64,000 nt of DNA, taken from NCBI RefSeq assembly GCF_009848685.1, contig NZ_WXTX01000003.1, positions 310,001-374,000 of the forward strand, given 5' to 3'. The first letter of the stretch is position 1; every line of letters starts with the position of its first letter. The notes under the pieces are model-generated. The model was not told the origin of the DNA and did not search any database. It worked only from the letters and a program-made list of their open reading frames with translations. Below, piece by piece: positions 5,452 to 53,382 of the stretch. Source of the DNA: Andreprevotia sp. IGB-42. GTDB lineage: Bacteria > Pseudomonadota > Gammaproteobacteria > Burkholderiales > Chitinibacteraceae. The translations under genes and the position numbers were made by a program.

Positions 5452-6066
5452 TCATGCGCCGACTTTTTCCCAGTCCACATCGCGCAGCAACGCAGCAAGC
5501 TCCACGCCCGAGCGCACGCGCAGCTTGGAATAGATGCGGGCACGGTGTACTTCCACGGTCTTGATACTGATATCGAGCACATCGGCAATCTGCTTGTTGA
5601 GCCGGCCGACCAGCAGCTCGCGCAGCACGTCACGCTCGCGCGGGGTCAGGCTGGACAGCCGCTCCGCCAGGTGCTGGCGCACTTCCCAGTCACCCCGCTC
5701 GATGCGGTCCGTTTCCAGATATTGTTCTACCTTACTGACCAGTACGCGATGGTCGAACGGTTTTTCGAGGAAATCCGCAGCGCCATCCTTGATCGCCGCC
5801 ACCGCCATCGGCACATCGCCATGGCCAGTCAGAAAAAGGACAGGCGGCAGGTAACTGGCGGTTTTCAGTTCGGCAAACAGCTCCAGCCCGGTCATGCCCG
5901 TCATGCGCACATCGACCACCAGACAGCCGAAATCCGCCGGATTGGCAGCCCCCAGAAAGTCTTCCGCCGATTCGAATCCCAGGCTGGGCCAGTGGCGGGT
6001 TTCAAACAGCATGGCCAGCGAATCACGTACGGCAATATCGTCATCAATGATGGCAATGGGGCGCAT
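5452..6066 (-). CDS. FixJ-family response regulator
   Basis: A 204-residue two-domain regulator. An N-terminal receiver holds the acidic pocket DDD at 8-10, the phospho-acceptor D52 (VVDVRMTGMTG), T/S switch in LTGHGDV, and the conserved lysine in EKPFD. A LuxR-type helix-turn-helix follows at about 138-200 (LTPRERDVL, NKQIADVLDISIKTVEVHR). Its ATG overlaps the stop of the upstream sensor kinase, so the pair is co-translated. FixJ-type regulators activate transcription when phosphorylated. The targets cannot be told from the sequence. Confidence 0.9.
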   Translation of the reverse strand: MRPIAIIDDDIAVRDSLAMLFETRHWPSLGFESAEDFLGAANPADFGCLVVDVRMTGMTGLELFAELKTASYLPPVLFLTGHGDVPMAVAAIKDGAADFLEKPFDHRVLVSKVEQYLETDRIERGDWEVRQHLAERLSSLTPRERDVLRELLVGRLNKQIADVLDISIKTVEVHRARIYSKLRVRSGVELAALLRDVDWEKVGA

Positions 6067-8357
6067 CAGTATACTTCCTTCTCGGTTTTTTCAATCTTGG
6101 CCGGCAACGGTATCCGGCAAACAAAACGCAAACCGCCGCCCGGGTTGGGCTCGGCGCGTAAATGACCTTTGTGCTGTTCCAGTACCGAGCGGCAGATATT
6201 CAGGCCGATACCCATGCCCTCTGCCTTGGTACTGTAGAACGGCTGGAACAGATTGCCCGGCTCTGCCAAGCCGGGGCCGCGGTCGGCAATGCTGACTTCC
6301 AGCGCATCGCCATCGCGGACGGCGGTAACGCGGATTTCACGCTTGCCGGGCATGGTTTCCATGGCTTCGACGCCGTTCTTGAGCAGGTTGAACAATACCT
6401 GCTCCAGCATCACGCTATCGCCGACGAATACCGGCAAATCGCCCGGCAGGTCGACGATGATACGTACGTGTGCCTTGCGCGCCAGCGGCTCCAGCAGCTG
6501 CAGCGGCACCGCCAGCAAGGCATCGATCTGGCAGCGCTCCTCGCGCGGTGCGCGCTTGGCGGCAAAATCGCGGATACCGCGGATGATCTGCCCGGCACGG
6601 CGCGCCTGATCGCCAATTTTGGTGAGTACCTCGCGCGCGCGGGAAAAGGCCGGTGGCTCCGCCCCCAGCAAGCCATCGCCCGCGGCCGCATAGCTGGCAA
6701 TGGCGGCCAGCGGCTGGTTGAGCTCGTGCGCCAGGCTGGATGCCAGTTCGCCCATGCTCACCAGCCGTGCGGTGTGCTGCAACCGCTCGTTGCGGATGCG
6801 GGTTTCCTCGGCAGCCAGGCGCATCTCGGTAACGTCGGTAGCGATATCGAGCCATACCGAGCGGCCATCCACCCAATCCAGACTGCGGCGCTGCACGCTG
6901 TACCAGCGGCCATCCACCGGATCACAGCACTCGGCGTACTGGGCATCGCCCGGCAACAGCGTCAGCAGGCAATACTCGCCATCCACCGGCAGTACGAAGG
7001 TAGTGGCGTGGTGCCGGTTGCGGTACAGCAGCTGGCCGGTATGCGCATCGGTGACCGATACCGCCGCCTCCAGCCCCTCCAGCACGGCGCGCAGCTGCGA
7101 GCGCGATGCGGCCAGCGCTTCGCGCTCGCGTTTGACTTCGGTAACGTCGTACAGCGATGCCATCCAGCCGCGATGCTCGCCACGGCCGTCCACCAGCTTG
7201 GAGGCGTACAGGCGCACATCGAAGCGCTCGCCATCCTTTTTCATGAAACGCAGCTGAAAACCATTCGATGGCGACTGGCCATTGAGAATCGCCTGATACA
7301 CCGATGCACAACGCGTGAGCTCCTCCGGCGGCCAGAACGGGAATGGCGGCACCAGATTCAGCAACTCCTCGCTGCGCCAGCCCACCATCTTGCAGAAAGC
7401 GGGGTTCACGTAAATCAGCCGCCCTTCGGTATCCATGGCGCGCAAGCCGGTGATCAGCGAGTGCTCCATTGCGGCGCGGAAGCGGATTTCATCGTGCAGC
7501 GCCACTTCGGCCGCCTGCCGTTCGCGCATGCGCCGCCGCACCTGCGACAGCGCCCACAGCAACAGTGCCAGCAGCACGGCGACGGCAAACACGAGCGCCG
7601 GCAATGACCAACTGGTGGGCTGCACGCGCACGCTGGCGCGCAACGACAAGCCATGGCCGGGCGGATCGAAAGCGATCTTGCGGGTGATGGCGCCGCTGGG
7701 CTCGACGGCATCGTACGGTGCAATCACGCCGTCACGGCCATCCAGCAGCGCCAGATCGTAACGCTGCACCATCCACCACGGAATCCGCTGCTGCAATAGC
7801 TGCGGCAGCGAGTAGCTGGCCAGCACTGCCCCTTGATACACGGTGCCGTGGAAATAAGGCACGATCAGCATCGCTGCGGGCGTATCGCCTTCGATGATGT
7901 TGCTGTAGATCGGGTAACCCAACGTGGCCGCGCCATCGATGCCTTCGCGCACTGCCTGGCTATCGAGCGCCGGCAGGCGACTGGGCCGGTCGCTGTACAC
8001 CGGCAGGCCACCCATGCGGCGACCGGTGAGATCGATATGCTCGACCGCAACCAGCTCCGGGCTGGCTTTCATCAGTGCATCGGCACGGACATTGAAATCC
8101 GGCGGGCGGATGGCGCCGGCGGCCAGACCATAGGCGAGGTTTTCCAGCGCGTTCTGATTGGTTTGCAGATACAGGCGGATGCCCTGCTCCTGCCAGAGCA
8201 GATCCTGCATCATGGTATTTTCGCGCTGCACGCGAGCCTGATGCTCGGCCAGCCAGGTGTAGCCGACCAGCGCAACCAGTGTCAGCGCGATGGCGGCGTA
8301 CGCAAGCAGCCAGGGCCACTGGCCAAGATAACGGTTGAGAAGCAGCTTGATGCGCAT
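6066..8357 (-). CDS. PAS-containing sensor histidine kinase (FixL/TodS-like)
   Basis: I start this 763-residue kinase at the ATG at 8357 because the more upstream ATG would prepend 29 proline/glycine-rich residues running toward a terminator. Two membrane segments (about 16-35 and 252-271) bracket a periplasmic sensor domain of some 215 residues. Two cytoplasmic PAS domains follow (about 290-410 and 420-515), then a HisKA domain with the phospho-acceptor H544 (SLAHELNQPLAAI) and an HATPase domain (N box LLKNGVEAM, G1 DRGPGL, G2 GMGIGL). It is coupled to the FixJ-like regulator. The ligand is unknown; I see no haem-binding PAS signature I would trust. Confidence 0.88.
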   Translation of the reverse strand: MRIKLLLNRYLGQWPWLLAYAAIALTLVALVGYTWLAEHQARVQRENTMMQDLLWQEQGIRLYLQTNQNALENLAYGLAAGAIRPPDFNVRADALMKASPELVAVEHIDLTGRRMGGLPVYSDRPSRLPALDSQAVREGIDGAATLGYPIYSNIIEGDTPAAMLIVPYFHGTVYQGAVLASYSLPQLLQQRIPWWMVQRYDLALLDGRDGVIAPYDAVEPSGAITRKIAFDPPGHGLSLRASVRVQPTSWSLPALVFAVAVLLALLLWALSQVRRRMRERQAAEVALHDEIRFRAAMEHSLITGLRAMDTEGRLIYVNPAFCKMVGWRSEELLNLVPPFPFWPPEELTRCASVYQAILNGQSPSNGFQLRFMKKDGERFDVRLYASKLVDGRGEHRGWMASLYDVTEVKREREALAASRSQLRAVLEGLEAAVSVTDAHTGQLLYRNRHHATTFVLPVDGEYCLLTLLPGDAQYAECCDPVDGRWYSVQRRSLDWVDGRSVWLDIATDVTEMRLAAEETRIRNERLQHTARLVSMGELASSLAHELNQPLAAIASYAAAGDGLLGAEPPAFSRAREVLTKIGDQARRAGQIIRGIRDFAAKRAPREERCQIDALLAVPLQLLEPLARKAHVRIIVDLPGDLPVFVGDSVMLEQVLFNLLKNGVEAMETMPGKREIRVTAVRDGDALEVSIADRGPGLAEPGNLFQPFYSTKAEGMGIGLNICRSVLEQHKGHLRAEPNPGGGLRFVCRIPLPAKIEKTEKEVY

Positions 8358-48593: not shown

Positions 48594-48731
48594 CCTTCAT
48601 TACCCACATCGCCCGCCGATGCAGGTTGAACGCCTTATTGGCGAGCCCGGCGCGGCCAGCCTACGATGAACGGAAACCACGGCCACGTTTTGCAGCGGGG
48701 CCGGTCAACACGGGGCATTGGGGGACAAAGC

Positions 48732-50345
48732 ATGAATATCGGCCAGAAACTCGGCGCATTGATTGCAGTTGCGATCGCCGCATTGCTGGTGGTGGGCACC
48801 ACCGCCATCATCAAGTTCAACCAGACTGCGGCCAGCGTGGATTTCATGTCCAGCGTGGCGGTGGAAGGACTGGTGCTGGTGCACAAGATCAACAACGCCT
48901 ACAAGGTGGAGCAGATCGTCACCAATCAGTACCTTACCGAGCAAGACCCCGCCAAGCAGGAAAAACTCGCAGCCGGGATTGCCGAGCAACGCGGGCGGCT
49001 GGCAGAGGCCATGAAGGGCTACGGCAGCTCGGTGGCGGAGGAAAGCGACCGCAAGAATTTCGAGGATTTCAGCGCCCGCATCGGGGAATTCAACCAGATT
49101 TTCGAGCAGGTGCGCAAAACCGCCAAGGATGGCGATGCCACTGGCGCGCATGCGCTGATGATCGGCCAGGGACGCAACGCAGCCATTGCCGCTGAAGCCG
49201 CGCTGCAGAAACTCACTGCTTATAACGTGGATGGCGCGCACACGCAGGTTGCGCTGGTAAAAGAAGGCCAGAGCGCCGCCAGGGTGCAACTGATCGTGGT
49301 GATGGTAGTTGCCTTGCTGGTACTGCTGGTGTTCGGCGTGATCCTGTATCGCTCGATCAGCGGCCCGCTGCAGGACATGCAGCGCATCGTCAGCCAGATC
49401 GAAACCAGCCTCGACTTCACCCAGCGCGTGCCAGTGCGCAGCAACGATGAAATCGGCAATACCGTTAGCGCCTTCAACCGCTTGCTGGAGCGCATGCAGC
49501 AAAGCCTGAAGGAAATCTCCCGGCGTATCGGCAATGTCACCGGTGCCGCCGGCGAGATGAGCCGTTCCGCGCGCGAGATGTCCGACAATGCCGGCCACAC
49601 CAGCGAGGCATCCAGCAGCATGGCGGCGACGGTGGAAGAAGTGACCACCAGCATCAACCACATCGCCGAGCGCAGCAACGAAGCCGATGAGCTGGCACGC
49701 AACTCCGGCCAGCAGGCACGCGCCGGTGCCGGGGTGATCGACACCACGGTTGCCCGCATCGATGGCATTGCCGGCACCGTGCGTGGCGCGGCCGAGCAGA
49801 TCAGCCTGCTGCGCGAGCAAAGCGCCAACATCAATGCGGTGGTCAACACCATCAAGGAAATTGCTGACCAGACCAATCTGCTGGCGCTCAATGCCGCCAT
49901 CGAAGCTGCCCGTGCCGGCGAGCTGGGGCGTGGTTTTGCGGTGGTGGCCGACGAAGTGCGCAAGCTGGCCGAGCGCACCACGCAATCCACGCAGGAAATC
50001 GCCACCACCATCATCAGCATCCAGGACAGCGCCGGCCGCGCAGTCAGCAGCATGGAACAAGTGGTGGAGCAGGTCGGCCAGGGCGTCGAGCAGGCGCGCG
50101 CTGCAGGCGAGGCCATCGCGGCCATCCGCAACAGCTCGACAGAAGTGGTGGAACGGGTCGGCGACATCAGCGGTGCCATCCGCGAGCAAAGCGCCGCCAG
50201 CACCAATATCGCCCACCTGGTAGAGCGCATTGCCCAGATGAGCGAGGAAAGCAGCGCCGCTGCACAGCGCACGGCAGGATCGGCCAGCAACCTTGATCAG
50301 CTGGCGGTGGAAATGCAGCGCGAAGTGGCCCGCTACCGGCTTTGA
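48732..50345 (+). CDS. Methyl-accepting chemotaxis protein
   Basis: A 537-residue chemoreceptor. Two membrane segments (about 9-30 and 190-213) flank a periplasmic four-helix-bundle sensor of some 155 residues. A HAMP domain ([18 protein letters not shown]) and a long signalling coiled coil follow. The hairpin tip reads [20 protein letters not shown] with [18 protein letters not shown], which binds CheA and CheW. No C-terminal CheR/CheB-tethering pentapeptide is present. The ATG at 48732 is preferred over an upstream in-frame ATG at 48666. The ligand is unknown. Confidence 0.93.
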
Positions 50346-50365
50346 CCCTGCGACGGCTTGCAGAA

Positions 50366-50465
50366 CCTGCCCGATAAACAGGCTGCGCCATCAAACGTAG
50401 CTCTTTCAAGGGCTTGTGATACTTGCCCACAGCTTGTGTACAGATGCCTCCCCATTTTGTGGGGG
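50366..50465 (+). repeat. Structured intergenic element, copy A
   Basis: First of five related intergenic copies. Order: hairpin GCCCGATAAACAGGC (50369-50383); TTCAAGGGCTTG; box 1 TTGCCCACA (50423-50431); box 2 TTGTGTACA (50434-50442), 11 bp later; then a CCTCCCC...TGTGGGGG hairpin. The 21-base core with both boxes is identical in copy D. It lies just after the chemoreceptor gene. Confidence 0.75.
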
Positions 50466-50664
50466 CGATTGTGGGCATTTTCACATGCAGTAGCGGCACG
50501 CATGCGCTCACACTGGGCCTTGCTGCACGGGCAAACGGGTGCCATACCTGTTGCCGCGCAGCCGGTACACGTTCAGCGCACCGTTCCATCTCTGCAGCTC
50601 AAATCATCAGGAAATGAGCCAGAATAAAAAATTGCACCGCTGCACGCACGCTTAGGAGTCCCGT

Positions 50665-51024
50665 ATGCCACTCAGACACGACCCCGCTTCCGCCAACTTG
50701 GGCCTGCAACCTTGCCGCATCATGGACGACAGTACGGACCCGGCCACCATTGTCGGCTACACCATCGTCGATACCGAAGGGCCGCTGATCCCCTACCGCA
50801 ATTACGATTCGGAAGCGGAAGCGCTGCTGGCCATCGATGCCGAAGGCAAGGAACCAGCCCGATCGGATGATGGTTCTGCCGAAGACGACGAAGGCCTGGC
50901 CGAAGAAGATGCGCTGGCGGAAGAGGCCGAATTGCGTGAAGAAGACGTGCTGGCCGAAGAGGCTGCACTGGCGCTGGAAGACGGGCTGGATGACGAAGAA
51001 CGTTACCTGAACCCGCGCTCCTGA
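50665..51024 (+). CDS. Small highly acidic hypothetical protein
   Basis: A 119-residue protein behind a good ribosome site (GGAG, 6-7 bases before the ATG). Residues 1-60 look like a small folded domain (IVGYTIVDTEGPLIPYRNY). Residues about 65-112 are dominated by Glu, Asp, Ala and Leu with a loose repeat EEDALAEEAELREEDVLAEE, likely helical or disordered. No signal peptide or membrane segment is seen and I do not recognise a family. Structured repeat copies A and B flank the gene. Confidence 0.65.
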   Translation: MPLRHDPASANLGLQPCRIMDDSTDPATIVGYTIVDTEGPLIPYRNYDSEAEALLAIDAEGKEPARSDDGSAEDDEGLAEEDALAEEAELREEDVLAEEAALALEDGLDDEERYLNPRS

Positions 51025-51074
51025 ACTCATGCGCCTTTAAGTGCTGCCCCGATGCGCACGGGGCAGCACGCCAT

Positions 51075-51175
51075 ACCTGCCCAAAGAACAGGCACTGCTG
51101 TTGGCGCCTGCTGCTTCAAGGGTTTAGCGCACTTGTCCACAGCTTATCTACAGGCCGCCCCCCATGGTTTGGGGA
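51075..51175 (+). repeat. Structured intergenic element, copy B
   Basis: Same order as copy A: hairpin GCCCAAAGAACAGGC (51079-51093); TTCAAGGGTTTA; box 1 TTGTCCACA (51133-51141); box 2 TTATCTACA (51144-51152), 11 bp later; C-rich/G-rich hairpin ending TTTGGGGAG. It lies 50 bases after the acidic gene. Confidence 0.75.
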
Positions 51176-51245
51176 GAAGCCGGGCGCGATCTGCAGCAAA
51201 CGGTATATACGCTGCAAACCGCAATTCTCCTTGCTTGTCCTGCAA

Positions 51246-51347
51246 TGGCGCCCAAAATTTGGTCACGCCAGGCAAACCCTGCCTGCTCAATGGCTTGCGC
51301 CACTTATCCACAATTTATCGACAGTCCCATCCCCGTGACATGGGGAT
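51246..51347 (+). repeat. Structured intergenic element, copy C
   Basis: Upstream part GCGCCCAAAATTTGGTC; spaced CTCAATGGCTTG; box 1 TTATCCACA (51304-51312), an exact E. coli-type DnaA box; box 2 TTATCGACA (51315-51323); hairpin ATCCCC...GGGGAT (51329-51347). Confidence 0.7.
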
Positions 51348-51380
51348 AGTACAAACGCATATCAAGTAACCCTTGGCTAC

Positions 51381-51481
51381 CATCGCCCAAAAAAGAGGCA
51401 TCGATACAAACTGTTTATACTTCAATGACTTGAAGTGGTTGCCCACAGCTTGTGTACAGCACCCTCCCCACCTTGTGGGGA
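51381..51481 (+). repeat. Structured intergenic element, copy D
   Basis: Hairpin GCCCAAAAAAGAGGC (51385-51399); TTCAATGACTTG; box 1 TTGCCCACA (51439-51447); box 2 TTGTGTACA (51450-51458); hairpin CCCTCCCCACCTTGTGGGGA. The box core is identical to copy A. Confidence 0.75.
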
Positions 51482-51538
51482 TGAGCATGCCTTTTATACA
51501 CAGCGCTACCGGACAACGCTGCTGCCCAGCCCACCTGC

Positions 51539-52570
51539 TCAGTACTGCACAACCTGCCCGGGCTGCGCCAGCGCTGCCGTCCACACCCGCATATCCTGCC
51601 ACGCCTGTGCAAACGGGCTTGCAGTTGCCGTCCCTGTAGCAATGGCCTGCCGGAAAGCCAGGAACTCGGCCGCATAGCCAAAATCATCACTGCGATGGTC
51701 TTCCTCGATACAGCTGCCATCGGCACCATGCAGCAGCAATGTGTGGCCGTCGAACTGCGCGCTACCGCGCTCGGCCAGCAGCAACAGCCGGAAGCCGGCC
51801 TGCCCCACTGCGGCAAAATAGAGGTCCAGCGTGCCGTTTGCACCGTTGCGGGTAGTGAACTGCAGGCTGGCGCCATCCCAAGCGCCCAGATGCGTAGCGG
51901 CCTTGCTGGTCAGCAGGCGGGCCTCGGCAATATCGCCCAGCAACAGTTGCACGCCAGCGCTGTAATGCACCCCCGCATCCAGCAACAAACCACCGGGAAA
52001 AGCCGCATCGGTGCGCCAGCCGCTGGCAATATAGCGGTTGTCCGCCAGCATGTGGTTGGCTGCCTGCCAGTGCAGCGCATACACGCGCCCGGCCACGCCT
52101 GAATCCAGCCATGCCTTGATGCGCAACAATGCGCTGCTGTAGCGGATGTTCTCTGCCACCATGGTGACAAGCTGCGGGTGTGCTGCGGCCAGCGCCAGCA
52201 TCTGTAGCGCTTCGTCGCCATTGGCAGCCAGCGGCTTTTCCACCAGCACATGCTTGCCGGCCGCCAGCGCGATGCGGCTGATCTGCAGGTTTTCGGTAGC
52301 AGGCAAAGCCACCAGCACCGCATCCAGCCCGGGATGATCGAGAAAATCCGCCCAGCCGGTATAACAGGGCAATGTGACAGGGCCACCGGTTTCCGCCACA
52401 TGGCTGGCAAACGCCTGCACGTTTTCCATGGTGCGGCCACACAGCGCCACCAGCGTGATCTGCTCCTGCAGTTGCCGCAAAGCAGGCCAGTGCAGCTCGC
52501 GCGCGGCCACCCCGGTACCGATCAGACCCAGCCGCAGCGGCCGCCCCTCGTTTGCCATCACCTGCGCCAT
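51539..52570 (-). CDS. Gfo/Idh/MocA-family oxidoreductase
   Basis: A 343-residue NAD(P)-dependent oxidoreductase. An N-terminal Rossmann fold has LRLGLIGTGVAARELHWPAL near residue 12 and the family hallmark KHVLVEKPLAAN near 108. The C-terminal dimerisation domain has the active-site region GGLLLDAGVHYSAGVQLLLG. Substrates of this family are usually sugars or inositols; none is indicated here. The start at 52570 follows AAGGAG. Structured repeat copies lie on both sides (D downstream, E upstream). Confidence 0.9.
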   Translation of the reverse strand: MAQVMANEGRPLRLGLIGTGVAARELHWPALRQLQEQITLVALCGRTMENVQAFASHVAETGGPVTLPCYTGWADFLDHPGLDAVLVALPATENLQISRIALAAGKHVLVEKPLAANGDEALQMLALAAAHPQLVTMVAENIRYSSALLRIKAWLDSGVAGRVYALHWQAANHMLADNRYIASGWRTDAAFPGGLLLDAGVHYSAGVQLLLGDIAEARLLTSKAATHLGAWDGASLQFTTRNGANGTLDLYFAAVGQAGFRLLLLAERGSAQFDGHTLLLHGADGSCIEEDHRSDDFGYAAEFLAFRQAIATGTATASPFAQAWQDMRVWTAALAQPGQVVQY

Positions 52571-52631
52571 GTTGCTCCTTGCCGTGCAGTACGCTGCACG
52601 AAAACCGACCATGCCAGCCCCAGCCTTCCGG

Positions 52632-52694
52632 CTCAGGCACTTGCCAGACTTATCCACAACTTCTGCCCAGCCCCCTCCCCGCGCGCCTGGGAGA
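52632..52694 (+). repeat. Structured intergenic element, copy E (divergent)
   Basis: The weakest copy. It keeps box 1 TTATCCACA (52650-52658), an exact DnaA box, an altered box 2 TTCTGCCCA (52661-52669) at the same 11-bp step, and CCCCCTCCCC...CTGGGAGA. The upstream hairpin of copies A, B and D is not clear. It lies between the oxidoreductase and GST genes. Confidence 0.55.
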
Positions 52695-52743
52695 AATGAC
52701 CTGCTGCACGATGCAACCAGCATGCAGCTGCATACCCTCTGCA

Positions 52744-53382
52744 TCAATATACCGGCTCGCCCAGCCCTTCGCGTGCGAGCGCCCGCTGTACTGCCGGCCG
52801 TGCATGCACACGCGCCAGGTAAGCGGCAAAATGCGGCAATGCTTTGGCGGGGCGATGCATATTGCGCGTCCAGCGCGCCAGCATGAACAGATAGGGGTCC
52901 AGAATGCTGTATTCGATCCCCAGCAGCCAGCTGCGGCCATCCGCCAGTGTGTTTTCCAGCAGATCGATCATTGCTTCGATCCGTTTTTCCGCATGCAGGC
53001 AAACCTGGCTGACGGCGGCTTCATCGTCGGCCAGCCGTTCCGGGTAGAAGTAACACAGCAGTTCGGCCTGCAGCGTATTGGTGAGATACATCAACCATTT
53101 GTAGCATTGCGCGCGGGCTATGCTGCCCACGGCAGGCACCAGCGCCGCTGCGGGGTGGCAATCGGCCAGGTGCAAGCAGATGGCGGCGGTTTCGAACAAC
53201 ACCAGATCGCCATCCACCAGCACCGGAATGCGCCCACTGGGATTGAGCCGCAGATAGGCCGGTTGCTTGTGGGCGGCGGCAGCGCGATCAACCAGCAGCA
53301 GCTCGAAGGACACACCGATTTCCTCCAGCAGCATATGCGGTGCCAGATTGGCATTGCCCGGATAGTAATAGAGTTGGTACAA
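52744..53382 (-). CDS. Glutathione S-transferase family protein
   Basis: About 212 residues with a thioredoxin-like N-terminal domain (YQLYYYPGNANLAPHMLLEE, then LRLNPSGRIPVLVDGD and LFETAAICLHLAD) and a helical C-terminal domain. The GST pattern with SxAIxxYL-type site is recognisable as TAAICLHLAD. The substrate is unknown. I take a TTG start at 53382, 6 bases after GAGG, because conserved sequence begins there; an ATG at 53457 is an alternative. It is divergent from srkA. Confidence 0.85.
   Translation of the reverse strand: MYQLYYYPGNANLAPHMLLEEIGVSFELLLVDRAAAAHKQPAYLRLNPSGRIPVLVDGDLVLFETAAICLHLADCHPAAALVPAVGSIARAQCYKWLMYLTNTLQAELLCYFYPERLADDEAAVSQVCLHAEKRIEAMIDLLENTLADGRSWLLGIEYSILDPYLFMLARWTRNMHRPAKALPHFAAYLARVHARPAVQRALAREGLGEPVY

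Follow-up and report, generated by a model that had tools for sequence, protein, structure and literature searches.

A clustered 102-bp intergenic element of Andreprevotia sp. IGB-42 with a layout resembling that of DnaA-reactivating sequences

The stretch of the Andreprevotia sp. IGB-42 genome analyzed here, referred to throughout as the window, comprises 64,000 nucleotides (NCBI RefSeq assembly GCF_009848685.1, contig NZ_WXTX01000003.1, positions 310,001 to 374,000) and contains a cluster of five copies of a 102-bp element, all of which lie on the plus strand, occupy intergenic DNA, and align in register over their full length. Read 5' to 3', the element is made up of a Fis-like 15-mer palindrome, an A/T tract, a core resembling a site for integration host factor (IHF), a strong DnaA box (box 1), and three further DnaA-box positions, designated III, II, and inverted I. 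In its sequence layout the element resembles the DnaA-reactivating sequences (DARS) of Escherichia coli, and it is probably a compact, clustered DnaA-reactivating element of the DARS2 type.

The cluster and the anatomy of its copies

Neighbors of the cluster are a chemotaxis receptor gene (48666-50345), an acidic open reading frame (ORF) of 119 aa, a GFO/IDH/MocA-type oxidoreductase gene on the minus strand (approximately 51542-52573), and a GST gene. Copy A (50368-50469) carries its Fis-like site at 50369-50383, its IHF-like core at 50404-50416, box 1 at 50423-50431, and boxes III, II, and inverted I at 50434-50442, 50446-50454, and 50460-50468, respectively. The corresponding sites, in the same order, are found at 51079-51093, 51114-51126, 51133-51141, 51144-51152, 51156-51164, and 51170-51178 in copy B (51078-51179); at 51250-51264, 51285-51297, 51304-51312, 51315-51323, 51327-51335, and 51341-51349 in copy C (51249-51350), where the Fis-like site fits the pattern GnnYAnnnnnTRnnC and box 1 reads TTATCCACA; and at 51385-51399, 51420-51432, 51439-51447, 51450-51458, 51462-51470, and 51476-51484 in copy D (51384-51485). 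Copy E (52595-52696) has the same plan (52596-52610, 52631-52643, 52650-52658, again TTATCCACA, 52661-52669, 52673-52681, and 52687-52695), with the most degenerate Fis-like and IHF-like parts of the five. Each copy is matched by two models, a covariance model built from ten copies of the genus and a sequence-only model built from 81 selected copies of the family, and copy E is further supported by synteny.

An initial annotation of this DNA had described five same-strand intergenic copies with paired DnaA-like boxes. The strand and intergenic placement are borne out, as is the identity of a 21-base core, TTGCCCACAGCTTGTGTACAG, between copies A and D. The DnaA boxes are likewise supported by the sequence, with four box positions per copy in place of two and with Fis-like and IHF-like sites in addition. 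Copy E, formerly placed at about 52632, is the same element and begins 37 bp further upstream, and all five copies, not just four, follow the common order along their whole length. A 21-base pattern of the DnaA-box core, TTRYCCACARYTTNTNNNCAG, has five matches in the 4.7 Mb genome when up to one mismatch is allowed, all on the plus strand and all in the window cluster, and its reversed control has none in the same 4.7 Mb. With up to three mismatches the window still yields five matches, each of them exact, against a mean of 1.05 matches over 100 shuffles, five being reached in one of them.

The regularity of the sites is best seen across relatives. The sequence-only model gave 222 matches, of which the best 150 were aligned and 144 anchored on box 1 (79 from the same family and 65 from other families, the latter not used to build the model, though all copies were found with it). 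Relative to box 1 at offset 0, the DnaA-box peaks of the 144 anchored copies fall at forward +11, forward +23, and inverted +37. In the own-family copies these offsets score 5.59, 4.47, and 6.2 of 9, against means over all offsets of 2.35 on the forward and 2.14 on the reverse strand (standard deviations 0.85 and 0.75), and the same three offsets lead in the other-family copies (5.32, 4.82, and 5.77). As to the plan of datA, in which an IHF site stands between essential DnaA boxes, no clear box peak is seen beyond the IHF-like site of a copy (the box I of the preceding copy being left out): the best forward DnaA-box offset there scores 4.25 of 9 and lies inside the A/T run of the Fis-like site. 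The Fis consensus GnnYAnnnnnTRnnC, as given in a passage of PMC4245941, occurs exactly at offset -54 in 37 of 79 own-family copies (at most four at any other offset) and in 14 of 65 copies from other families (at most six elsewhere); with one mismatch allowed, 66 of the 79 fit, the next offset reaching 39. The putative Fis site stands out in the own family and is weak in the others. A relaxed IHF core, CARNNNNTTR, stands at -16 in 66/79 and 52/65 copies, respectively, with no more than three at other offsets in each set, and an A/T-rich tract lies beside it at approximately -32 to -29. The lambda H' site is an IHF site with an A-tract, and WATCARNNNNTTR is an IHF variant. A three-box core with opposed boxes II and I at fixed spacing is present family-wide, boxes II and I being degenerate in the window copies, and the order of IHF-like and then Fis-like sites beyond the core, as in DARS2, is also family-wide as judged from sequence alone.

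In a side observation, the very acidic 119-aa ORF lies at 50665-51024, between copies A and B, and may be an orphan gene; it has no Pfam match and no match among the 12 other family genomes searched. In A. lacus (locus L015, approximately 6220-7005) a different reading frame, apparently broken by an in-frame stop when inspected by eye, stands in its place. At the same locus (approximately 5676-5925) an element copy is separated from the oxidoreductase gene by some 250 bp of DNA that has inverted ends (GGGCCTGTTAACACTTATTTC...) and resembles, again by eye, a small non-autonomous insertion. CRISPR spacers and the attC core of integrons were looked for by eye only, the latter against the attC consensus, and none was noticed in the absence of a dedicated search; gene order at the locus is conserved across species.

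Distribution among relatives

The genus Andreprevotia is placed by the NCBI taxonomy in the Neisseriales, family Chitinibacteraceae; order is used below as defined by the genome search. The gene order chemotaxis receptor, oxidoreductase, APH-type kinase, tilS, and accA is kept in Andreprevotia lacus and A. chitinilytica, in both without the GST gene, and the same neighborhood holds two copies of the element in the former and three in the latter. Of these, A. lacus has one and A. chitinilytica two in the same gap, and each species has one more before the oxidoreductase gene, the counterpart of copy E. When the three copy-E loci are compared in 20-bp bins, 9 to 15 of 20 positions are invariant from -60 to +39 and two to nine in the bins outside (the nine falling within the oxidoreductase gene); in the three species the intergenic DNA that flanks copy E is less conserved than the copy itself. 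Pairwise identity among the ten copies of the genus is 45-73%. The exact 21-base pattern has no match in any of 60 relatives, presumably because these carry variant second boxes, and the covariance model then recovered their copies.

At an E-value of 0.05 or below the covariance model, the calibration of which is rough, matches all 43 family genomes, and 42 of them at 1e-4 or below, the weakest best match being 0.014. The sequence-only model matches all 16 family genomes in which it was run, with 2 to 10 matches each. Searches covering more than 40 genomes used stricter filters, under which absences are not firm. Of 300 genomes of the order, 95 were matched at E ≤ 1e-4, with 72 still matched at ≤ 1e-5 and 41 at ≤ 1e-10; ten of the 95 belong to the own family and 59 have at least two matches. 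The 41 genomes with the strongest matches span nine families, and 39 of them carry two or more. Across the class, five of 369 genomes were matched at E ≤ 1e-5, two of them in the order (the own genome included) and the other three with a single match each. These three (G411:C33:16564, G510:C288:2458, and G678:C40:20824) are possible single-copy DARS2-like sites outside the order.

Within the Andreprevotia sp. IGB-42 genome a second cluster, of two copies, lies outside the window and 44 kb from the window cluster, bringing the total to seven copies in 4.7 Mb. An eight-copy cluster of A. lacus lies near the same marker gene (82.97% identity) as this two-copy cluster, and the two appear to represent one orthologous locus with eight copies in A. 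lacus (L064, 6851-8126) and two in the species of the window (L063, 8444-8657). Silvimonas terrae, S. amylolytica, and Amantichitinum ursilacus have five, five, and four matches, respectively, within approximately 4 kb of a related oxidoreductase gene, the S. amylolytica figure counting in one doubtful match (E 0.18). In several genera the clusters occupy different gene contexts, and more canonical versions of the element are found in other genera.

Match to E. coli loci and chromosomal setting

For comparison, 222,003 bases of E. coli K-12, including the DARS1, DARS2, datA, and oriC regions, were scanned on both strands with a III-II-I matrix built from 136 distinct copies. The highest-ranking site lies in the DARS1 locus (813,107-813,141; 20.95 bits) and the second in the DARS2 locus (2,969,135-2,969,169; 18.57 bits), with another site in the DARS2 intergenic region at rank 6. 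These coordinates agree with the positions of 0.81 and 2.97 Mb at which DARS1 and DARS2 are placed in a passage of PMC5742627. When the spacing was left free (96 combinations), gaps of 3 bp and 5 bp ranked first at DARS1, second at DARS2, and 53rd at oriC, and both E. coli DARS segments show box III, 3 bp, box II, 5 bp, and inverted box I, which is the spacing of the Andreprevotia element. The sequence-only model aligns without gaps to DARS1 over 33 positions (8.9 bits, the top match of that search) and to DARS2 over 34 positions (7.3 bits, second, the top match of the region, 8.8 bits, lying elsewhere in the same intergenic region). On the strand of the core, a site scan of DARS2 reads Fis, IHF, a weak DnaA box (TTATTCAGA), III, II, and I; the order core, IHF-binding site, Fis-binding site is given for DARS2 in passages of PMC4245941. 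At E. coli 2,969,439-2,969,485 (L099, 3440-3486) the DARS2 intergenic region holds a second set of head-to-head boxes that is arranged like a core and scored on both strands.

Proteins with which a DARS2-type element would work, IHF and Fis, are both encoded by the host. The genome carries a dusB-fis pair with a Fis of 84 aa, ihfA and ihfB score above their cut-offs, hda scores above one of its cut-offs, and an HU-like gene and dnaA are also present.

Among 13 genomes anchored on dnaA (genome sizes were partly rounded, and two of the genomes comprise more than one contig), the best cluster is found at a distance of 0.56-1.74 Mb from that gene, or at 0.24-0.99 of the replichore as measured from it; ten of the 13 fall between 0.3 and 0.62, and the position is not fixed. 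A location near oriC, as for datA, is not seen, the nearest of the 33 sites in these genomes being 0.56 Mb from dnaA. GC skew does not switch at 50-53 kb, and 14 of the 15 sliding windows covering the 64 kb have negative values. The cluster was rejected as an origin of replication on the grounds that no skew switch is present and no sites lie beside dnaA in the 13 genomes. As a separate observation, the rpmH-dnaA gap of the own genome (L022) shows by eye one perfect DnaA box only, and the real oriC may lie elsewhere.

Of the 13 best clusters, 12 are oriented toward dnaA, and the exception lies at the terminus. Judged by the position of dnaA, 27 of 33 sites point against the replication fork, or 25 of 27 when six flagged near the terminus are left out. 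Orientation was also read from local GC skew, for which 60 of 62 loci were counted (L157, with no match, and L154, with matches on both strands, were excluded, and several genomes contribute two loci). By this measure all 30 own-family loci, the window included, point the same way, against the fork (the skew at L063 being only -0.002), and 15 of 30 other-family loci do so. Orientation against the fork was accordingly rejected as a universal rule, and because of the contrast between 30/30 and 15/30 loci its direction looks like a trait of the lineage rather than a general rule. Relative to GC skew, every locus examined from families f13, f27, and f51 of the order (L134, L136, L137, L139, L141-L143, L146, L149-L152, and L161) points the opposite way, as do single loci of two more families (L148 and L155).

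Interpretation and comparison with known systems

Features read from the sequence, namely the order of the sites and their fixed spacing, conservation, restriction to clusters, and the match to the E. coli DARS loci, point to an element that probably reactivates DnaA in the manner of DARS2. In E. coli, according to passages of PMC4245941, PMC8682772, PMC10380432, and PMC5742627, IHF and Fis assist the loading of ADP-DnaA on a head-to-head core of DARS2, ADP is released, and DnaA returns to its ATP-bound form. By analogy, Fis, IHF, and several DnaA molecules would assemble on each 102-bp copy; IHF and Fis would bend the DNA and aid loading of ADP-DnaA, the DnaA molecules on boxes II and I would meet head to head and release ADP, and the freed DnaA would bind ATP and become competent to start replication. 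The five-copy cluster and the two-copy cluster 44 kb away would together raise the DnaA-recharging capacity of the cell, and the presence of several nearby DARS-like copies suggests a multi-copy version of replication-timing control, in which additional copies may provide either more capacity or robustness.

Several points weigh against assigning the element to the DARS2 type. The main weakness is that the window's own copies carry degenerate versions of boxes II and I, of the Fis site, and of the IHF site: the two boxes are weak (e.g., CCCTCCCCA and TTCTCCCCA), the Fis pattern is exact in one copy of five, with one mismatch in two and two mismatches in two, and the strict IHF consensus WATCAANNNNTTR has one to three mismatches in all five. 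With up to one mismatch that consensus is found in only 16 of 79 own-family and 7 of 65 other-family copies, and the relaxed IHF core was chosen after the alignment had been inspected. Because the model itself was used to find the copies, the box peaks are not independent of it; the own-family box II peak (+23, 4.47 of 9) barely exceeds the A/T-run offset -45 in the Fis-like site (4.25), and in other families the one-mismatch Fis pattern fits 40 of 65 copies at its offset against 36 of 65 at the next. Of the 95 genomes matched in the order, 36 have one match only. The candidate Fis of the host scores 116.5 and 97.3 bits, just below the NCBIfam cut-offs of 122 and 99. In E. coli the third-ranking matrix site is unrelated and scores 17.89 bits, a small margin at DARS2; a 1/5 spacing outscores 3/5 in the DARS2 region; the datA segment is also best at 3/5, though low (11.9); individual matches of the sequence-only model are weak (7-9 bits); and we infer from the order of the sites which segment corresponds to the published DARS2 core.

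The principal rival is that the cluster is datA-like, its copies titrating DnaA or, with IHF, promoting hydrolysis of DnaA-bound ATP and so holding initiation back, which we regard as unlikely. In its favor, 16 family genomes carry 2 to 10 copies apiece, every copy having a strong DnaA box and most an IHF-like core; datA is described in passages of PMC10380432 and PMC4585315 as a set of DnaA boxes and one IHF site with critical spacing; and DnaA-box clusters that repress untimely initiation in Bacillus subtilis and Streptomyces are mentioned in part of PMC5742627. Against this, the datA segment fits the III-II-I arrangement poorly (best 11.9, as opposed to 22.8 for DARS1) and is matched by the sequence-only model only around single boxes, minimal datA as described in a passage of PMC10380432 has one IHF site and four DnaA boxes and no Fis site, and datA lies near oriC whereas no site was found within 0.56 Mb of dnaA in the 13 anchored genomes. 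As for the DnaA-titration locus suggested in the initial annotation, its DnaA part is borne out by sequence, and the core layout resembles DARS more closely than it does datA or oriC. Fis and IHF are general nucleoid proteins, and this general role, together with the intergenic position of all window copies, would also suit a protein-binding array unrelated to replication control, such as a promoter array regulated by DnaA, IHF, and Fis or a nucleoid-organizing site. Such an array is improbable, since neighboring genes vary between several genera while the element stays, no promoter-like sites occur in the window cluster, and the DARS core spacing would be left unexplained.

Another rival, a mobile or non-autonomous repeat in which the DnaA boxes are incidental, is favored by the difference in copy number at apparently one locus (two here and eight in A. 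lacus) and by the different gene contexts of the clusters in several genera. The non-autonomous repeat family of this lineage that the initial annotation had entertained is nevertheless highly improbable: the seven copies are confined to two places 44 kb apart in 4.7 Mb, on which ground a dispersed mobile repeat was rejected, the place is the same across the genus, with copy E kept at one site in three species, and the element occurs beyond the genus and the family. Terminal repeats and target duplications, looked for by eye only and without a dedicated search, were not noticed. Least probable of all is a family of tandem small structured RNAs, which had been proposed from the same-strand copies and their hairpin-like ends and which gains a little from the folding of one A. 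chitinilytica copy (z -3.71 against shuffles) and of copy D (z -1.99). In the ten copies RNAalifold kept only a terminal stem that is nearly invariant, with a two-sided change in one of six pairs and in one sequence; the two stems as drawn by hand (the second helix one column off) show no covariation above that of shuffles; and folding of the other nine copies is unremarkable, within about two standard deviations (z -1.99, for copy D, to 1.96). At gathering scores the window has no Rfam match. The interval 50300-52800 showed no promoter-like site, and neither of its two terminator-like sites falls at a copy, both being inside the oxidoreductase gene. The conserved blocks coincide instead with protein-site consensuses, and in view of the site anatomy the two hairpins first described would be the Fis-like palindrome and the head-to-head box pair II/I. 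The structured RNA was therefore rejected. The condition set in the initial annotation for refuting its observation had two parts, a lack of copies in relatives and a lack of covariation; copies were found in relatives and covariation was absent, the latter counting against the RNA reading only.

To return to reactivation of DnaA by a DARS2-type element, a bolder extension, which we consider doubtful though possible, is that arrays of compact, self-contained DARS2 modules, each combining Fis, IHF, and DnaA sites in 102 bp and numbering 2 to 10 per genome, would serve to control DnaA in the Chitinibacteraceae and in several further families of the order, with copy number acting as a tunable dial for the supply of ATP-DnaA; in the Chitinibacteraceae the direction would be tied to fork travel (30/30 loci by GC skew), so that passage of the fork would reset the array. 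If the assignment to the DARS2 type is correct, the natural 102-bp module, with its Fis-like site, IHF-like site, and three-box core, would offer a minimal DARS for study, the two copies and eight copies at apparently one locus in two Andreprevotia species would form a natural copy-number series, and the role of ATP-DnaA supply in setting the timing of initiation would become testable through copy number. DARS-type control, in a multi-copy form, would also extend to betaproteobacterial families.

The original DARS paper is reportedly that of Fujimitsu in 2009. Among the papers listed by literature searches, partly blurred by the matching of "datA" to "data", none reported DARS or DnaA-box clusters from betaproteobacteria or as multiple copies. 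There may already be a published single DARS from some betaproteobacteria, since a passage of PMC5742627 describes DARS2 spacing as conserved in E. coli-proximal beta- or gamma-proteobacteria and one of PMC10380432 describes DARS-like sequences as conserved in many proteobacteria; Fis and the DARS2 core are described as specific to gamma relatives in part of PMC4245941.

Among known systems, the clusters recall by description the chromosomal DnaA-box clusters of B. subtilis and Streptomyces coelicolor that hold back initiation (PMC5742627, in part). The element shares with datA several DnaA boxes, an IHF site, the importance of spacing, and possible titration, and it differs from datA in that the latter matches III-II-I weakly, has no Fis site in its minimal form as described in part of PMC10380432, and lies near oriC. 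With DARS1 it shares the best III-II-I matrix match in 222 kb and the 3/5 spacing, first of 96; according to passages of PMC5742627 and PMC8682772, DARS1 measures 101 bp and, unlike the element, has minimal accessory regions, whereas DARS2 has further regulatory ones. DARS were elucidated in E. coli, in which DARS1 and DARS2 each form a single locus. The description of DARS2 as one locus of approximately 455 bp also counts against placing the element with it. DARS2 is further described with three additional DnaA boxes; the element has 102 bp, is repeated in clusters, and has a strong DnaA box between the IHF-like site and box III, where DARS2 has only the weaker candidate TTATTCAGA. The features shared with DARS2 are an intergenic location far from oriC (DARS2 as characterized in passages of PMC4245941 and PMC8682772) and a core of boxes III, II, and inverted I with gaps of 3 and 5 bp, followed by IHF-like and then Fis-like sites in the same order and on the same strand.

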